Of a stretch of DNA of 51,958 nucleotides, positions 12,063 through 37,206 are shown one piece after another. The DNA is from a bacterium (GTDB lineage: Bacteria; Planctomycetota; UBA1135; GCA-002686595). The notes under the pieces are model-generated. The model was given only the letters and a program-made list of their open reading frames with translations. It was not told the origin of the DNA and made no database searches. Positions within the stretch are counted from its first letter, which is position 1, and each line of letters begins with the position of its first letter. Location of the stretch: positions 1 through 51,958 of the forward strand of contig JAAELL010000116.1 in NCBI GenBank assembly GCA_024226735.1. The letters run 5' to 3'. The translations under genes and the position numbers were made by a program.

Positions 12063-14582
12063 TCACCGGGGCTCGATCGAACGCGCCGGCCGCACACCCT
12101 GGTTCACCTCCCGCGAACCAGCATTGTCGCTCGACCGGCGGGCTGCCCTCATCATGCTCGGACTATCCAGGAAAGAGCCTCCTCTGGCCGTGGCGAGTGC
12201 CGCGAAGCTCGGACTCGCGTTCGTCCGGAATCCCTGCCCGGGCTCCCTGGTCTCCAAACACCACTCCCACAGGTTCCCGTGGACGTCGTGGACTCCCCAA
12301 GCGTTGGGCCGTAGCGACCCAACCGGGGCCTTGTAGATGAACCCGTCTTCGAATCCACGCTCGAACCACTCCTTGGGGTCATGGCGCCCCAGCGCTTCGT
12401 CGGCGATGTTCGCCGCGCCCACGAGCGACTGCACGTCATCCCCCGTCCAGAACACGGTCGAGGATCCGGCGCGCGTGGCGTACTCCCATTGGGCCTCCGT
12501 TGGAAGCGAGAGACCGAGACAGGCGAGCGTGCCGTTCGCATCGCGCCACGACACGAATGACATGGGGTGATCGTCCGACTCCGCCCGGTCAGGGAAGTTG
12601 GCGCTGCTCTCGGTGACCCGCAGCCACTGGCCTTGGGTCATTTCGTACTTGGAGAGGAAATAGGCGCCCAGCGCCACGGTTCGAACCGTAGGGTCCGTGG
12701 TGCGGTGCTCTGGGTCCGCGTTCGGTGAACCGCGCGGGTGCTCGGCTGAAACGGGATACGAACCCATCGCGAACGACCCGGCGGGCACGAGCACGAGCAC
12801 GATTCCCGTCCCCTCGGCAACCGTGGATCTTCCCGTCTGCGCGTCGCGCTCGGGCGCCTCACCAGTCCGAACCACGAGGAACTCCCACAACCCCGACTGC
12901 GGGTTGCGCCAGAGCGGCAGCAGCCCCATCTGCGGTGCGAGCGCGAGCCCACCATAGACGCTGAGCTCGGCGATGCTCGTACTCGCTTCGATCCACTTCT
13001 GGCGCGCCTCTGGCCCTTCCGTGCTGAGGATCGCTGTACGTTGGGCCAATGTGATGCGCTCCGTAACGTGCCCGACGATGTCCGGAAGCTCACGCAGGCC
13101 CTCGACGAGCTCGGTGAGAATCTCGCGTTGCCACTCGGTTTCCGTATCCTCGACGAGCTCGGTGGTGTGGTCCACAGCCAGCGTTTCGAGGGCTCCGCGA
13201 TAGATGTCTTCACTCTCCAGAACACCCCGCGCGCGAGCGAGCCAAGCGCTCATGTAGCCGATCCGACTCGGGAACGCTGGCCACAGCTCCGGTTCCTTGC
13301 GTATCAGATCGCGGAGAATCTTGACGTCCGAGAGACGCCCGATCTGGGCCGCGGAGAGCCGCGCGCGCCGATCGGCGCGCTTGTGCAGCTCCGTACGCAG
13401 GGTGAGCGCCGCCACGTCCTTGGGACGTAGGCCAAGCGCCTGCTCGGTTTCGGCGAGCGCGCCGTCGAGTTCGCCCTCTTCCGCGAGAGCGCGCGCACGC
13501 TCGACTCGCTCGGCCACGATGGCGACTTCGATGCGGTGGCGCCACAGCTCCGATCCTGCGGCCAGGATCGCGACGATCGAGATCAGCGCCGCAGCCCACG
13601 TCGAGCGCGGATGACGGCGCCCCCAGCGCAGAGCACGTGCGCTGAGCGTCGGCGGACGCGCTTGGACCGGCCGGCCGTTCGAGAGGTTCGACAAGTCGAG
13701 CGCGAACTCAGCCGCCGTTTGATAGCGTCGCCTCAAGTCGATGTCCATCGCCTTCATGCAGACGACTTCCACGTCGCGGCGCACCAGCGGGTTCGTCTCG
13801 CGCAAGCGTGGCGGCGCGCCGGCCAGGATCCGTTGCATCGTGAACTCGGTCGACGCCGACGTGTAGGGTGTGTGCAGCGCAAGCATCTCGTAGAGCGTCA
13901 CACCGAGCGAGTAAATGTCGGTGCGCGGGTCGACATTGCGCTCTCCGTTGAGCCGCTCGGGCGAGACGTACAGGAGCGAGCCCGGCACGACGCCGCTCTT
14001 CGTCAGCTGCGTCTCCCCAACTACAGCGGCCAATCCGAAGTCGAGCAGCATCGTGCGCCCATCGCGAGTGATCGCGATGTTCGACGGCTTCACGTCGCGA
14101 TGGATCACACCGCGGCGGTGAGCGTGCTCGAGCGCATCGGCTACGCGGCGCGCGATCTCGAGACACACCTCGACCCACGGGCGCCCGTTCCAGACGTCCG
14201 CACGCTCACCATCCATGCCTCGAACGGCGTGAACCGAGCGCGTGAGGTCGTCACCGTTCAGCTCCTTGGGACGCTGACCAGAGAGCGACTCGAGCACCTC
14301 GGCCAGCGTGCAGCCGTCGATGAGCTCCATCGTGAAGTACGGGAGCCCCGCGTCCTCGCCAAACGTGTAGACCGGCACGATCCCGGGGTGGCGCATCAAC
14401 GCGGCTGCGGCCCCCTCGCGCCGAAAACGGTCGACGCTGCTACCGAAGACGAGATTCTCTGGGCGTACGACCTTCAGTGCCACACGCCGGCCGAGAGACT
14501 CCTGCAGCGCTTCAAACACCACGCCCATGCCGCCCCCACCGATACGACGTATCAGACGGAAGTCACCGAGCCTCTCTGGCAA
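12063..14582 (-). CDS. Ser/Thr protein kinase with a membrane helix and C-terminal FGE-sulfatase (SUMF1) domain
   Basis: About 839 residues. Kinase domain at residues 6-290: G-G-G-G-M-G-V-V-F loop, V-A-L-K-V lysine, H-R-D-V-K-P-S-N catalytic loop, D-F-G-L-A, and an S-P-E-R-L activation-segment end, so it should be active. A hydrophobic helix follows (W-A-A-A-L-I-S-I-V-A-I-L-A), then about 240 residues with TPR-like helices, then an FGE/SUMF1 domain (M-G-S-Y-P, L-P-T-E-A-Q-W-E-Y-A-T-R-A-G, V-H-D-V-H-G-N-L-W-E-W, R-G-G-S). The topology suggests a receptor kinase with the FGE domain outside the membrane. The frame begins with a poor TTG just inside a kinase N-terminus. The natural upstream part lies in another frame (see 14600-14794), so the gene carries a frameshift or the sequence has an indel. 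Confidence 0.85.
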   Translation of the reverse strand: MPERLGDFRLIRRIGGGGMGVVFEALQESLGRRVALKVVRPENLVFGSSVDRFRREGAAAALMRHPGIVPVYTFGEDAGLPYFTMELIDGCTLAEVLESLSGQRPKELNGDDLTRSVHAVRGMDGERADVWNGRPWVEVCLEIARRVADALEHAHRRGVIHRDVKPSNIAITRDGRTMLLDFGLAAVVGETQLTKSGVVPGSLLYVSPERLNGERNVDPRTDIYSLGVTLYEMLALHTPYTSASTEFTMQRILAGAPPRLRETNPLVRRDVEVVCMKAMDIDLRRRYQTAAEFALDLSNLSNGRPVQARPPTLSARALRWGRRHPRSTWAAALISIVAILAAGSELWRHRIEVAIVAERVERARALAEEGELDGALAETEQALGLRPKDVAALTLRTELHKRADRRARLSAAQIGRLSDVKILRDLIRKEPELWPAFPSRIGYMSAWLARARGVLESEDIYRGALETLAVDHTTELVEDTETEWQREILTELVEGLRELPDIVGHVTERITLAQRTAILSTEGPEARQKWIEASTSIAELSVYGGLALAPQMGLLPLWRNPQSGLWEFLVVRTGEAPERDAQTGRSTVAEGTGIVLVLVPAGSFAMGSYPVSAEHPRGSPNADPEHRTTDPTVRTVALGAYFLSKYEMTQGQWLRVTESSANFPDRAESDDHPMSFVSWRDANGTLACLGLSLPTEAQWEYATRAGSSTVFWTGDDVQSLVGAANIADEALGRHDPKEWFERGFEDGFIYKAPVGSLRPNAWGVHDVHGNLWEWCLETREPGQGFRTNASPSFAALATARGGSFLDSPSMMRAARRSSDNAGSREVNQGVRPARSIEPR

Positions 14583-31478: not shown

Positions 31479-32391
31479 GTGCGCGGACGCTCCCTCCGCG
31501 AGCTGCTCGATGACTCCGCGGCTGGCCCCGGTCCGCGCTGGGTGGTTCGTGGCGATCCGGGGTGTGGCAAGACGACGCTCGTGCGCCATCTCGCGTGGGA
31601 GCTGGCAGGCGATCCGGAGCAGCGTTGGTATCCGGTGTACCTGCGCGTCCGACAACTCGTTGAAGCCGGGGGTGGGCGCGGTCAGCCGTGGGCGCGGGTG
31701 CGGCGCTTGCTCGAAGAGTTCGGTCACGACGACATTGTTCTCACCGACCTCGAAGCGCTGCGTGCTGAAGGGCGGCTGCTCGTCATCCTCGACGGGTTGG
31801 ACGAAGTCGGCCGCGAGCGCGCAGAGGCGGCGCGCAGCCTCATCACCCTCCTCGCGACCGAGCACATGGGTCCCTCACCGATTCTCGTGACGTGCCGGCG
31901 CATCGGCTACCGCCCGCTCGGGCACGGCTTCGGCGAAGCCGATGTGCTGCCGCTCGGAGAGGATGCGCAGGCGCTGCTCCTGCGTCAGTGCCTGAACGTC
32001 CTCGGCCGCGGCGGAGGTGGCAAGAGCCCCGAGACTTGGGTCCGCGAGTTCGCGAGCGAGGCCACCTTGGCGTCGTTCGCCGAGAACCCGCTGCTGCTGA
32101 CGCTAATGGCGATCCTCGTCGGCGAAGGGAAGCGGCCGGCGGCCCTGCGCAGTCAGTTGTACGAGCAGGTCATCGACCTTCTCCTCGACGGTAGACACAA
32201 GCCTGACCCCCAGCCCGTGCCGTGCAAGTTGGAGGTGCACGATGCGCTCGCGTGCGTGGCGGAGCGCATGACGGAGGAGGGCCAGGTCGCGGCGAAGCGC
32301 GAAGTCCTGGAGACGTACGTACGTCGCATGCGCAGGCTAGGAGAGACCGAACAGGAGAGCCTGGAGAACCTGCTCGCGGAGCCGTGCTGGC
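31479..32391 (+). pseudogene. NACHT-type NTPase fragment at the head of the DGR cassette
   Basis: The frame carries a P-loop (G-D-P-G-C-G-K-T-T, about 31555), Walker B (L-L-V-I-L-D-G-L-D-E, about 31785), a sensor-like T-C-R-R and the F-A-E-N-P-L-L-L-T-L-M segment, the order of a NACHT/STAND ATPase. About 305 codons survive. The N-terminal effector and everything after the helical part are missing. The frame runs without interruption into an unrelated reading of the avd gene, so a deletion fused them. I infer an earlier NLR-like protein, perhaps a former variable-protein gene of the same DGR. Confidence 0.75.
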
Positions 32392-32517
32392 ATGGCGATT
32401 CTGTTCCGCTTGGCCCGCGAGAGCGGGGTCCAATCGAAGAGCGGCTTCGAGTCCGCAGCGCGCGGCGTCGACGAGATCGGTCGCATGCTCCACGGTTGGC
32501 GGAAGTCCCTTCGATGA
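32392..32517 (+). pseudogene. avd: C-terminal 41 codons of the DGR accessory protein Avd
   Basis: In the +1 frame relative to the NACHT fragment, the sequence reads A-I-L-F-R-L-A-R-E-S-G-V, then A-A-R-G-V-D-E-I-G-R-M-L-H-G-W and a stop. The V-D-E-I-G-R-M-L-x-G-W ending is the hallmark of the last helix of Avd-like four-helix-bundle proteins of diversity-generating retroelements. Avd forms a pentamer that binds the RT and is needed for mutagenic homing in known DGRs. Only the last helix and part of the third remain. Its TGA overlaps the RT start (ATGA), the usual avd-RT coupling. Confidence 0.75.
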
Positions 32518-33060
32518 AGCGCGTGGGCGGACTGTGGGACGCGGTCGTCTCGTTCGAGAACCTTCGGCTTGCCGCACTGCGGGCTGCGCGGGGAAAGCAT
32601 CGGGTGGCCGGGGTGGCACGGTTTCTCGCCGATCTCGAGCTCGAGGTCCTCGCGCTCCAACGCGAGCTTCGGAGCGGCACCTGGCGACCGGGCCGGCCGA
32701 CGACCTTCCGCATCCATGACCCCAAGGAGCGCACGATCACTGCGGCCCCGTTCCGCGAGCGAGTGGTGCACCATGCGCTGATGGATGTCTTGGAGCCCGT
32801 CCTGGAGCGACGAATGGTGCACGTGAGCTTCGCCTGCCGGAGGGGCAAGGGGACACACGCGGCGCTCGCCCATGCGCGGCAGCTCGTACGGCGCCACGGG
32901 TGGTTCCTCGAGTTGGACATCGCACGGTGCTTCGACTCGCTCGATCACGGAGTCGTCCTCCGGTGTCTGCGGCGTGCCGTGAAGGACCGTGCGGTGCTCG
33001 AGCTGGCAGACACAATCGTCACGACAGGCCGCGGAGTTGGGCTGCCGATCGGCAGCCTCT
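32514..33060 (+). pseudogene. DGR-type reverse transcriptase, N-terminal 182 codons only
   Basis: From the ATG at 32514 the start is typical of DGR and group-II-like RTs (a K-R-V-G-G-L-W-D start, then F-E-N-L-R-L-A). It continues through I-H-D-P-K-E-R-T-I-T-A-A-P-F-R-E-R-V-V-H-H-A-L and L-D-I-A-R-C-F-D-S-L-D-H (palm motif with the first catalytic Asp) to G-V-G-L-P-I-G-S-L. At that point, where T-S-Q and then the YxDD catalytic motif should follow, the sequence switches to the template repeat. Palm motif YxDD, thumb and C-terminus are absent, so the fragment cannot polymerise. The start codon overlaps the avd stop. Confidence 0.85.
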
Positions 33061-33120
33061 GCGCTCCGCGTATCGCATCAACGACCACCCCGGCAACCGC
33101 AACAACGACCTCGGCTTCCG
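33061..33120 (+). repeat. DGR template repeat (TR), right part
   Basis: Sixty bases match the reverse strand at 33670-33611 at 48 positions. Nine of the 12 differences are at template adenines (33072, 33084, 33087, 33095, 33096, 33101, 33104, 33105 and 33108). In the frame of the variable protein the template reads R-S-A-Y-R-I-N-D-H-P-G-N-R-N-N-D-L-G-F-R-P, with AAC codons at the positions that vary. Its left part, which should encode the matching G-G-S-W-type stretch, is missing at the RT junction. Confidence 0.85.
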
Positions 33121-33588
33121 CCCTCGCCAAGGCGTCGCACCGCCCGATCGTTGCGGTCACGTCGATTACGACGGACCACGCGCAGCGCACGTGACGCCCA
33201 GGCTCGTCTCCCGCGCCGCCAACCGCGCGGCCAAAACGAAACGGCGCCCTGGGAGTGGTAGGGAAACCGAAGCTTCCGGGGCGCCACCTGTTTCGACGCG
33301 GGCGCCACGCTCGGAGCCGGCTTCGCTCGGCCCTCGCGGGCGCTTGGCGCGAGCGCTCGGTTCCCTCGCCTCGCGCGGCCTTGGCCTGCGGCCTCGGCGT
33401 CGTGGGGCTCCGCCCCTACACCCCGCAGCGCACCGCTTCGCGCGCGCTCGAGTGGGTCACCGGCTCATGGCGCGTCGTCCGCGCCTCGGTCGGCTTCGCA
33501 CGACCGGGCGCTCGTCTCGAGGGGAGGACAGCTCCGCTTCGCTGCGCTGCAGAGTTCTTCGATGGAAGAGGTGAAGTGGTGAAGGGGA
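33121..33588. other. GC-rich spacer between template repeat and variable gene
   Basis: There is no gene on either strand. The stretch is very GC-rich with many short self-complementary pieces (for example around 33340-33420). It contains whatever follows the TR on one side and the 3' end downstream of the variable repeat on the other. A pyrimidine-rich tract lies just after the variable-gene stop on the minus strand. No clear homing hairpin could be drawn by eye. Confidence 0.45.
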
Positions 33589-36500
33589 TCAGGGGCAATC
33601 TCTGGCCGGGCGAAAGCCGAGGGCGCCGTCGCGAAGGCCGGGGGGGGCGTTGCTGCGACACGCGGAGCGCGCGAACTGCGCGACGCCCGCAAAGCAGCCG
33701 CCCCGGTAGACCCGGGAGGAGCCGCCAGCAGGCTCGAAAGCGCGCGGATGAGCCGACCCCGACTCCGAGTAGTCGATCGACCAGCGATCCTGGACCCACT
33801 CCCTGACATTCCCATGGACGTCGTAGAGACCGAAGGCGTTCGCGAGCTTCTGCTTCACTTCGTGTCGACTCCCGCCTGCGTTGCCCGCGTACCAGCCGGC
33901 CCGGTCGAGATCGTCCTCTCCGTCGCCAGACCAGTACCTCGCCGTCGTCCCCCCACGGCAGGCGTACTCCCACTCCACTTCCGTCGGCAACCGTCCACCC
34001 AGCCATCGACAGAACAGCCACGCCTCCCACCAGCTCACCCCGACGACCGGATGGGGCCGGTCGCCGGCTCCCTTCGTCGGGTCGAAACGCTCGTACTGGC
34101 CTTCGGTCACCGGGGTCGCCGTCATTTGGAAAGGCTCGACGGTCACGTCGTGGGCTGGCCCTTCGTCCTGGTACCGCTCCTTTTCGTCCTCTTCGCTTCC
34201 CATTCGAAACTCGAGCGAGAAACCGTCGGATGGAGGGCACGCTTTCCAGTCGAGCTCCGGCGGCGCTTGCGCGCCCGGCCGCTCCGCGATCTTCGCGTGC
34301 AGCCGCTCGGTCGAGACGTCGACTCCGATCCCGTCGAGCGCGTAGACGACGTACGCGACCTTCTCGAGCTCCAGGTCTGGCGCGATGCTCCTCCACAGTA
34401 GCTCGTCGATCTCGCCTCGCTCGTGCCCCTCGGCCCTCCAGCCGCGAGCAAGCGCGAGCAAGTTGTCACCGTCCCAGTCGGAGAGCCCGCGCAAGAACTC
34501 GAACGACACGGACGGCTCCAGCCCCTCGACTTCGGGAAGCGCGCGCAAGGCGATCTCCGGGCTGACCCCCGCGAGCCCCTGGAGACGCTCGAGCTTCTCC
34601 GCGGTCGTTTCCGCGAACGTGCACAGGTAGCCGAACACCTCGCCCCAGCGCGCTGCGTCTTCCAGGTTGGTCGCGAGCTCGGTATACGTCTCCTGCCCCA
34701 GGCGGTTCAGGCCGTCGGCGGCGAGGTACTCGCCGATGCTGCGGTGCATCCAGCGCCACGGCTGCGCTTCGCCCTCGTGCGCCCCAATCAGACCGGAGTT
34801 GTGCCCCACGTCGTCGAGGAATCCATCGATGGCCCCGTCCCACGGCGCCAGCACCCGCTCCAGCTTCAACTCGGGGTAGCCGTCCGCCAGCCCTTCAACG
34901 GCTTCCAGCAGATCCGGTTGCGGCCACCGCTCGCCGCCGCCCTTCATCAGCTCCAACGCGAGGTAGGGCAGAACCTTCCGGCATGCGTAGGCGCTCTTGA
35001 CTGGTTTCGGCCGCTGACCGTGGCCACGCTTCAACAGCACGCCGGTCGCCTGGTCGTACAGATCGTGCCGCGTCAGCGGCAATTGCGCGTCGGGACCGAG
35101 CGCCGATTGAGCGTAGGCCACCAGCGAGAGGAGCATCGGGTTCGTGCAAAGGCTCCGCAGCGTCGGACGATCAACGAGGGCTTTCCAGGCAGCCTCGCTC
35201 TCGTCTTCGAGCCAGTTCTCGATCAGCTCCTTCTGGCGCTTCATGTCCAGCGGCTGGATCCGCGCATCGACGAAGCCCGGGATCGGCGTGAAACCCGCCG
35301 TTCGGCTGGCGACGACGATCACGCAGTGCTCCAGCTTGTCGGCCCATGACTGGAGGTTCTCGCGCGCGCTGGCGCGGCGTTCTTGCGGAAGCTCGTCGAG
35401 TCCGTCAAGGAAGAGCCAAACGGCCCCGGGCTTCTTGGCCAGCTCATGCAGAGCCTCGGCAATGCCCTCGGCCGGCCGCTCACCGACCTTCACCCGAACC
35501 TCGCGCTCGGCGAGGCTGAAAGGGTGGATCGGCTCGTTCGCGAGCAGTGCGAACACAGGCACCGGCAGCTCCCCCGGCCAACTCCGCGCCAACTCGGAGG
35601 TGCGATCCGCCAGAGCGTGGCACAGGTACCGACACGCCGTCGACTTCCCGGCTCCTGGGTCGCCGAGCACGGCCCAGCGCCGTGTGACGCGGTCGTCGTC
35701 TTTCGAGGTGAGCTGGAGCAGCTCGTGCAACGATCTCTGCATGTGCAGGAGGTCGTGCCGCTCGTCAACTGGCTCCCCGCCCCGCTTGGCGCTGCCGAGC
35801 GCGAGCTCGACGTGGACGTCGGGGAGGTCCTTGCCGTCGCAAGAGAAGAGCGAGGGAAGGTGACGGTGCTGTTCGGCGACGTATTCGAGGTAGACCTCGA
35901 GCGGGTCTGCCTCTGCCGTCGGCGTGGGTACACGTCGGTCGAGCAACTCCACCAGCTCGATGAAGTCGGCGGCGCTCGAGAACGGAACGTCTTCTCTCCC
36001 GACGTCCACGACGTCACGCGCCTTTGCATGTTTCCAAACGTGCAGCTCGCGATCGAGGCCACACCAGAATCCCGCGACTACGGCGTTCGCCGCGTTCTCC
36101 TGGCCATCCCGCCGATCGTTTCCCTCCGGGAACGGAGCGAGCAACCAGACGACCCGCCGGACGCCGTCGAGCTTGTCCGGCAAGTCCTCCAGGTTCCATC
36201 CAGCGTCGGGCAGGACCCGCCAGCCGCGATTCTGCTCGACCCAGCGCGAGAAGCCGTCACCGGGACCGGACTTCGGGCAAAGGAATAGCGTCTCCCCGCC
36301 AGCCTTGGGATGCCGCGAGCAGCGAAACGCCTCGGCCTGGGTGATGAGCCGTTCGATTGCCGTCTGATCACCGCCGGGAAGCACGACGAAGTTGTCGAGC
36401 GGCGGCGCCTTGACCCAGGGAGGCAGCTCGGTTCCGCCCCAGCCGAGCACGACTTCGCGATCCTTCGCGAGGCCGTAGCCGACTTCGAAACCCACGTTCG

Positions 36501-36732
36501 CGTTCGGAAGATCCACGAGTGCCACCACCCGGTCCGCAGAACCGAGATGTGGTTCGATACCACTCCAGAGGTTGCCCGACCGCTCTTCGCGCCCACCGAC
36601 CTTCACGGACCATCCCTCGGGAGGCGAGAGGCGGAGGAAGTCGAGCGTGACGTCGAGCCCGACCGTCGTCATATCCCAGACGACGAACGCCTTCCTACTG
36701 GGGCCGCTGTCCGCTTCGCTATCTCGCGTCAT
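33589..36732 (-). CDS. DGR variable protein: TIR/deoxyribosyltransferase-like x2, NACHT NTPase, FGE/C-type-lectin-fold domain
   Basis: 1047 residues from the ATG at 36732 (an in-frame ATG at 36903 adds 57 residues of low complexity). Residues about 13-130 look like a TIR/nucleoside-deoxyribosyltransferase fold (V-V-A-L-V-D-L-P-N-A-N-V-G-F-E-V-G-Y). A second, similar region at about 150-270 contains N-A-A-N-A-V-V-A-G-F-W-C-G-L-D. A NACHT ATPase follows with P-loop G-D-P-G-A-G-K-S-T at about 357 and Walker B L-F-L-D-G-L-D-E-L near 439, then a helical part. An FGE/SUMF1-type domain spans about 839-1047 (L-P-T-E-V-E-W-E-Y-A-C-R-G-G, D-V-H-G-N-V-R-E-W). The final 20 variable codons are the DGR variable repeat. 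The order effector, STAND ATPase, diversified sensor is that of an NLR-like immune receptor (inference). It faces the RT/TR cassette. Confidence 0.88.
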   Translation of the reverse strand: MTRDSEADSGPSRKAFVVWDMTTVGLDVTLDFLRLSPPEGWSVKVGGREERSGNLWSGIEPHLGSADRVVALVDLPNANVGFEVGYGLAKDREVVLGWGGTELPPWVKAPPLDNFVVLPGGDQTAIERLITQAEAFRCSRHPKAGGETLFLCPKSGPGDGFSRWVEQNRGWRVLPDAGWNLEDLPDKLDGVRRVVWLLAPFPEGNDRRDGQENAANAVVAGFWCGLDRELHVWKHAKARDVVDVGREDVPFSSAADFIELVELLDRRVPTPTAEADPLEVYLEYVAEQHRHLPSLFSCDGKDLPDVHVELALGSAKRGGEPVDERHDLLHMQRSLHELLQLTSKDDDRVTRRWAVLGDPGAGKSTACRYLCHALADRTSELARSWPGELPVPVFALLANEPIHPFSLAEREVRVKVGERPAEGIAEALHELAKKPGAVWLFLDGLDELPQERRASARENLQSWADKLEHCVIVVASRTAGFTPIPGFVDARIQPLDMKRQKELIENWLEDESEAAWKALVDRPTLRSLCTNPMLLSLVAYAQSALGPDAQLPLTRHDLYDQATGVLLKRGHGQRPKPVKSAYACRKVLPYLALELMKGGGERWPQPDLLEAVEGLADGYPELKLERVLAPWDGAIDGFLDDVGHNSGLIGAHEGEAQPWRWMHRSIGEYLAADGLNRLGQETYTELATNLEDAARWGEVFGYLCTFAETTAEKLERLQGLAGVSPEIALRALPEVEGLEPSVSFEFLRGLSDWDGDNLLALARGWRAEGHERGEIDELLWRSIAPDLELEKVAYVVYALDGIGVDVSTERLHAKIAERPGAQAPPELDWKACPPSDGFSLEFRMGSEEDEKERYQDEGPAHDVTVEPFQMTATPVTEGQYERFDPTKGAGDRPHPVVGVSWWEAWLFCRWLGGRLPTEVEWEYACRGGTTARYWSGDGEDDLDRAGWYAGNAGGSRHEVKQKLANAFGLYDVHGNVREWVQDRWSIDYSESGSAHPRAFEPAGGSSRVYRGGCFAGVAQFARSACRSNAPPGLRDGALGFRPARDCP
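33611..33670 (-). repeat. DGR variable repeat (VR) in the last codons of the NACHT-FGE gene
   Basis: It aligns without gaps to 33061-33120. At codon level the template Y, D, H, N, N, N, D become C, A, P, L, D, G, A, each explained by adenine changes (the first Asn codon also carries a synonymous-class C to T). The three non-adenine differences are at alignment positions 18, 37 and 58. The flanking bases GCGCTCCGCG are identical. The position, at the end of the FGE domain where C-type-lectin-fold DGR proteins expose their variable loops, fits the family. Confidence 0.85.
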
Positions 36733-37206
36733 CGTGTTCGCGCTTCCGGGTCCCTCGTCCCCGCCTTCTCCCTCGCAAGGGTGCAAGGATACTGGCGAAC
36801 GGGCCCCGGGGCGAACGTGGTCGGCAGCGACGCGTGCCGCCTCGCCCGCCCCCGCCGTCCGTTCGATGAACCGGAACAGCATCTGAGTCTGCTCCCGTGT
36901 CAACGAAGGGTAGCGGCCCCGTCCCTAACCCTGCACACCCTCGAGCGCGCGGCCTTCGGCCGCGATTCCACCACGGTTCGAGCGCGTCATCGCGCGGTCC
37001 GTACACAACGTCTCCATCGCGAGCGCGGAGTTGGCATTCGAGTCGATGCGCTACGCGGCGCGACGGTAGGTGTTATGCAAACCGCCGAGCACGGGGGTGG
37101 CGAGGACTTCACCTTGGCCTTCGCTGCGATGGCGCGGGATCGGCGCGTTTCCACCGAGCGCCATGTGCTTCCTCGACGCGTTGTACAACTCGGGTCCACA
37201 CTACCC
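36733..37206 (+). other. stretch without a recognised gene
   Basis: It contains the 5' region of the NACHT-FGE gene (possible extra codons up to 36903) and about 300 bases of degraded sequence. A short palindrome of the type CGCGGCC...GGCCGCG lies near 36945-36965. No complete gene is visible on either strand. Confidence 0.4.

Follow-up and report, generated by a model that had tools for sequence, protein, structure and literature searches.

A target gene beside a broken diversity-generating retroelement in a planctomycete, with a variable repeat most likely rewritten in trans from a paralogous element

The last rewriting of the variable repeat (VR) of a diversity-generating retroelement (DGR) target gene, next to a broken retroelement in a planctomycete genome bin, most likely came in trans from an intact paralogous element, as judged from comparison of the sequences. 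The window, the whole stretch of DNA analysed, is contig C116 (JAAELL010000116.1, 51,958 nt) of bin G000 (GCA_024226735.1); the intact element lies on C540, another contig of G000. The template repeat (TR) on C540 fits the window VR at every site other than adenine while many of its adenines are changed: over 119 nt, 17 of 23 template adenines differ and none of the 96 other bases. The evidence for rewriting is that of one assembled genome sequence. The features of the window are as follows.

31479..32391, forward strand: NACHT relic (PF05729, E 2e-15)
32392..32514, forward strand: C-terminal third of Avd, a relic (PF22296 bAvd, positions 69-106 of 107)
32514..33059, forward strand: 5' part of a DGR-type RT (RVT_1 positions 8-132 of 205 only; ends GLPIGSL)
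33061..33123, forward strand: 3' half of the TR, a relic (63-nt match to the VR strand; 5' half gone)
33124..33588, no strand: spacer that separates the TR relic from the target gene, homologous by alignment to the equivalent spacer of the C540 DGR
33589..36903, reverse strand: target gene with two predicted NDT/TIR-like folds, NACHT and FGE-sulfatase (start codon provisional)
33601..34212, reverse strand: FGE-sulfatase (CLec-fold) domain with the VR (PF03781; model pLDDT 94.6)
33608..33726, reverse strand: the VR (119 nt), close to where the target gene ends at its 3' side; relative to the C540 TR, 17 of 23 adenines are changed and none of 96 other bases
35200..35676, reverse strand: NACHT domain of the target (PF05729, residues 410-568, E 2.8e-12)
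35932..36705, reverse strand: two predicted Rossmann-like domains, NDT/DNPH1-like and TIR-NADase-like

A preliminary description of this DNA had paired 60 nt at 33061-33120 (+) with 33670-33611 (-). Its ungapped alignment with 12 differences is reproduced exactly, 9 of them at the 13 template adenines and 3 at the 47 other bases (Fisher P 8.5e-6), and adenine-specific mutagenic retrohoming, the process it had named, is the best explanation of the window VR. An FGE/C-type-lectin-fold domain (PF03781, E 4.7e-43) does end with the variable copy, the VR lying at 33608-33726 in the 3' end of a gene that stops at 33589. The 60-nt core stands, and its limits are corrected: the surviving template half runs from about 33061 to 33123 and aligns with the VR strand over 63 nt (33608-33670), while the full TR of C540 sets the extent of the VR at 119 nt, 33608-33726 (-). 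The copy at 33061, which had been taken for the template of this VR, does not fill that role. It is a truncated relic with three non-adenine mismatches, at all of which the VR is compatible with the C540 TR, and the latter fits with no such exception. The signature of a DGR at the locus is real, but the adjoining RT is without its catalytic half.

The window has no complete cis-acting DGR. Its RT fragment, which shares 83% identity with the C540 RT over residues 1-188 of the latter, stops at GLPIGSL before the catalytic YxDD motif, which is absent from the window RT frame. The Avd stub scores 22.4 bits against bAvd (E 1.8e-4), under the family cut-off of 40, and in place of a full-length TR there is the 63-nt half, which mismatches the VR at 3 of 47 non-adenine sites of the 60-nt core; its alignment with the C540 TR and adjoining flank (query 21-160) has 86% identity. 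Alignment with C540 shows 501 nt missing from the window, which comprise the 3' half of the RT with its stop codon as well as the TR's 5' half, and the RT frame from 32514 now runs straight through the half-TR as a hybrid open reading frame with its stop at 33194. A perfect 18-nt palindrome, GGCTGCCGATCGGCAGCC, lies at window 33040-33057, 2 bases from the deletion junction; C540 keeps 14 nt of it, and it may have helped the deletion.

The NACHT relic at 31479..32391 has six non-self matches in the genome. Five are in DGR target genes (one each on C179 and C275, two on C540, and the window target), and the sixth is on C240. The fragment is probably what remains of a former upstream DGR target, since the order on C540 is target-Avd-RT-TR-target and, in the related genome G015, VRs occur on both sides of a TR.

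The DGR on C540 has every part. Between its two targets are an Avd spanning bAvd positions 2-106 (E 2.9e-12, and 1.6e-11 in the genome search), an RT of 330 residues with YMDD, and a TR directly after the RT stop, so that the remote TR is accompanied by both an RT with YxDD and an Avd. The C540 Avd is the sole match to bAvd above the cut-off in a search of the whole genome. The two VRs of this element differ from its TR at adenines only: one at 15 of 23 adenines and 0 of 97 other bases, the other at 19 of 23 and 0 of 96. The upstream target has the architecture DUF4062-NACHT-FGE. The C540 and window loci share the order Avd-RT-TR with a convergent target downstream, at 80% nucleotide identity over Avd and RT and about 75% over the TR flank and target, whereas the window copy is broken.

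G000 is a bin of 612 contigs, with completeness of 88.8% and contamination of 3.3%. Three things place C116 and C540 in one cell: their common bin, the match of template to VR, and a tetranucleotide correlation of 0.980 between C116 and the C540 stretch, compared with at most 0.949 for other planctomycete contigs. As reckoned from the contig ends, a distance of at least about 22 kb separates the C540 TR and the window VR. An unseen TR in the missing part of the genome could be the donor of the window VR.

Because half of the local template survives, local and remote templates can be compared at one target. They differ at five sites within the 60 nt that they have in common. The VR has the C540 base at four of these and is compatible with C540 at all five; the remaining one is 33078, where the VR reads G against A in C540 and T in the local copy. 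Sites 33078, 33097 and 33118 exclude the local copy as a source of the VR by adenine mutation. The other two sites, 33084 and 33104, are adenines in the local copy, and a mutated local A would also be compatible with the VR. Upstream of the present start of the local TR, in the stretch that corresponds to C540 42090-42145, the VR is changed at 9 of 11 template adenines. A whole-genome search with a pattern of 45 nt of TR, in which adenines were opened to N and up to three mismatches allowed, returned four places, all of them exact: the C540 TR, the two C540 VRs and the window VR. The remaining TR/VR-like repeats, in other genomes and at other G000 loci, were collected by a scan of fetched loci with a cut at 32 differences, and they differ from the C540 TR at 25-32 of 92 non-adenine sites; full identity at such sites is therefore not usual.

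The two target genes themselves have diverged. In codons 900-1058, which lie immediately before the VR, 68 of 158 third-codon positions are unlike in the window and C540 targets; inside the VR the count is 0 of 38 (Fisher 1.5e-8). At the overall mismatch rate of the flank, 0 differences at 92 VR sites would have P 3.7e-12, the sites being taken as independent. With identical non-adenine bases between diverged flanks, the VR is far more recent than the separation of the two loci. The identity to the C540 TR outside adenines, together with the broken local machinery, points to writing in trans. The following course of events would produce this arrangement: an Avd-RT-TR-target cassette was duplicated, the copy now in the window lost its machinery through deletions, the RT and Avd of C540 copied RNA of the C540 TR, making errors at its adenines, and the resulting cDNA replaced the window VR. 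The window target would have been kept in use because the C540 proteins could serve its VR. Of the hairpin or cruciform found behind the VR in BPP-1, no significant counterpart was seen behind the window VR (fold z 0.32); the z values behind the C540 VRs are 0.23 and -1.41.

We consider it improbable that the VR is the work of the local element, acting in cis while still intact, and that the half-TR drifted later at three non-adenine sites. A dead TR is free to drift, and a strong adenine bias does persist between the local half-TR and the VR (9 of 13 against 3 of 47). By the same account the VR should have drifted too, yet it matches the C540 TR at all 96 non-adenine bases beside third-codon positions that differ at 68 of 158, and drift of the half-TR would need to have kept VR and C540 consistent at all three excluding sites. 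Writing in cis is disfavoured by the non-adenine and third-codon counts.

Still more doubtful is an assembly error, by which the fusion of RT and TR would be artefactual and the locus really an intact cis DGR. Repeats of DGRs do break assemblies. Here, however, the flanks of the junction both diverge from C540 (80% identity upstream and 86% downstream), so the fusion is not a chimera with C540. No long repeat is common to the two breakpoints, as judged from the C540 sequence; the missing 501 nt could not be traced elsewhere in the window, except for the VR; and Avd is broken as well, at a second place. Gene conversion from a C540 target gene, bringing a C540-type VR into the window gene without retrohoming, has very little probability: the target genes are paralogs and both C540 VRs have the non-adenine bases of the window VR throughout, but the tract would need to stop at the TR boundaries and every later change would have to fall on an adenine site. 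Of the 23 such sites, 16 distinguish the window VR from C540 VR1 and 15 from C540 VR2, and there are no differences elsewhere. Retrohoming from the C540 TR covers both the boundaries and the adenine changes in one step.

The prediction for the target of this presumed writing in trans is a STAND/NACHT sensor, equipped with effector domains resembling nucleoside 2-deoxyribosyltransferase (NDT) and TIR, and with a varied FGE end, which perhaps serves immunity against phages. Foldseek matches to the model of the FGE domain are FGEs and TvpA, and the best solved relative by sequence is TvpA (2y3c, E 2.4e-30). TvpA of Treponema denticola is likewise a DGR target with the FGE/CLec fold; unlike it, the window protein has NACHT and predicted effector domains as well. 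A second FGE-sulfatase domain in the window, at 12081-12797 (-), ends a long open frame, and none of the four TRs of G000 matched a VR in it.

Targets served from a distance are already known, in Thiohalocapsa and in cyanobacteria, and the window locus is a further case. As reported for Thiohalocapsa PB-PSB1, DGRs 4 and 5 are without an RT and match the TR of DGR 2 at all non-adenine sites (PMC10907252). That genome resembles G000 in having RT-less loci, many DGRs and STAND/CLec targets. The loci described there have MITE-like arrays in the place of the RT, whereas pieces of the window cassette are simply missing, and their variation was seen in metagenomes (PMC10907252). By comparison with the same account, the window differs also in its host, a planctomycete, and in the half-TR beside the target, which records a mismatch to the VR (PMC10907252). 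Many remote DGR targets are described in cyanobacteria (PMC7517822). These variable proteins and the window target are both CLec/FGS targets far from a DGR and linked to it by TR/VR similarity, which in the cyanobacterial set, as described, means at least 50% identity and in the window means agreement at every non-adenine site, against a competing local template (PMC7517822). Ternary conflict systems are described with FGS domains and a TR elsewhere in the genome, as for the window target (PMC7159879). In BPP-1, a donor plasmid is reported to write a phage-borne target, which makes supply in trans mechanistically ordinary (PMC3240598). A large metagenome survey of DGRs states of itself that remote targets were undetectable to it (PMC8144416).

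What the window locus adds is a natural control, in which a broken local template and an intact remote template can be told apart by discriminating sites. A TR-like repeat beside a VR is not necessarily its template. If the reading in trans is right, a target can lose its own mutator yet remain variable, and loss of the mutator followed by service in trans would be one way in which trans-served repertoires of immune sensors could grow.

The wider set of DGR loci in G000 was surveyed by scanning four TRs against fetched loci that cover all 52 FGE-sulfatase matches of the genome, and by whole-genome patterns. Four of the 52 matches are TRs, and many lie in open frames of about 1000 residues. The tally is four loci, on C540, C98, C122 and C179, at which the RT keeps YMDD or YVDD and the TR is full, and beyond these one wreck, that of the window, and ten VRs. 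No bAvd was recognised by the whole-genome search at C98, C122 or C179, where RT and TR are present; these three may use a different accessory protein. A VR at C122:44549-44609 (-) lies about 1 kb from the C122 TR, yet it matches the TR of C98, with 16 of 21 adenines and 0 of 105 other bases changed; against the C122 TR it has mismatches at 27 of 99 non-adenine sites (72 of 99 match). The parallel of C98 and C122 with the window is weakened, since a recognisable bAvd occurs on C540 only. The TR/VR pair that belongs to C122 itself (C122:45500-47400) has 12 of 28 adenines and 1 of 99 other bases changed, the one non-adenine exception among the tallied pairs.

Sixty relatives were searched, none of them of the genus of G000; G015, which is near-complete, and G025 belong to the same family. 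G015 has 41 FGE-sulfatase matches. In a scan of three of its DGR loci, both among themselves and against 30 of the 41 FGE loci, 2 non-adenine mismatches were allowed per 60 nt; the VRs that a TR matched lay within about 10 kb of it in every case, and no match fell at another DGR locus. Remote writing is therefore not general in the family. For G000 we give roughly even chances to a hub-and-spoke arrangement, in which a few DGRs would write immune-sensor targets across the chromosome through template-specific channels. A target could then outlive its own machine, as in the window, or be written by a remote DGR despite having another only about 1 kb off, as the VR at C122:44549 would be by that of C98, and the window half-TR would be a frozen record of the switch from own to foreign template.

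Two VRs on C99 and one on C275 match TRs of other contigs; they lie near contig ends and so may be in cis. An open frame of 1201 residues at C99:64-1015 (-) has two FGE domains, each with a VR, and both of these VRs agree with the C98 TR at all non-adenine sites.
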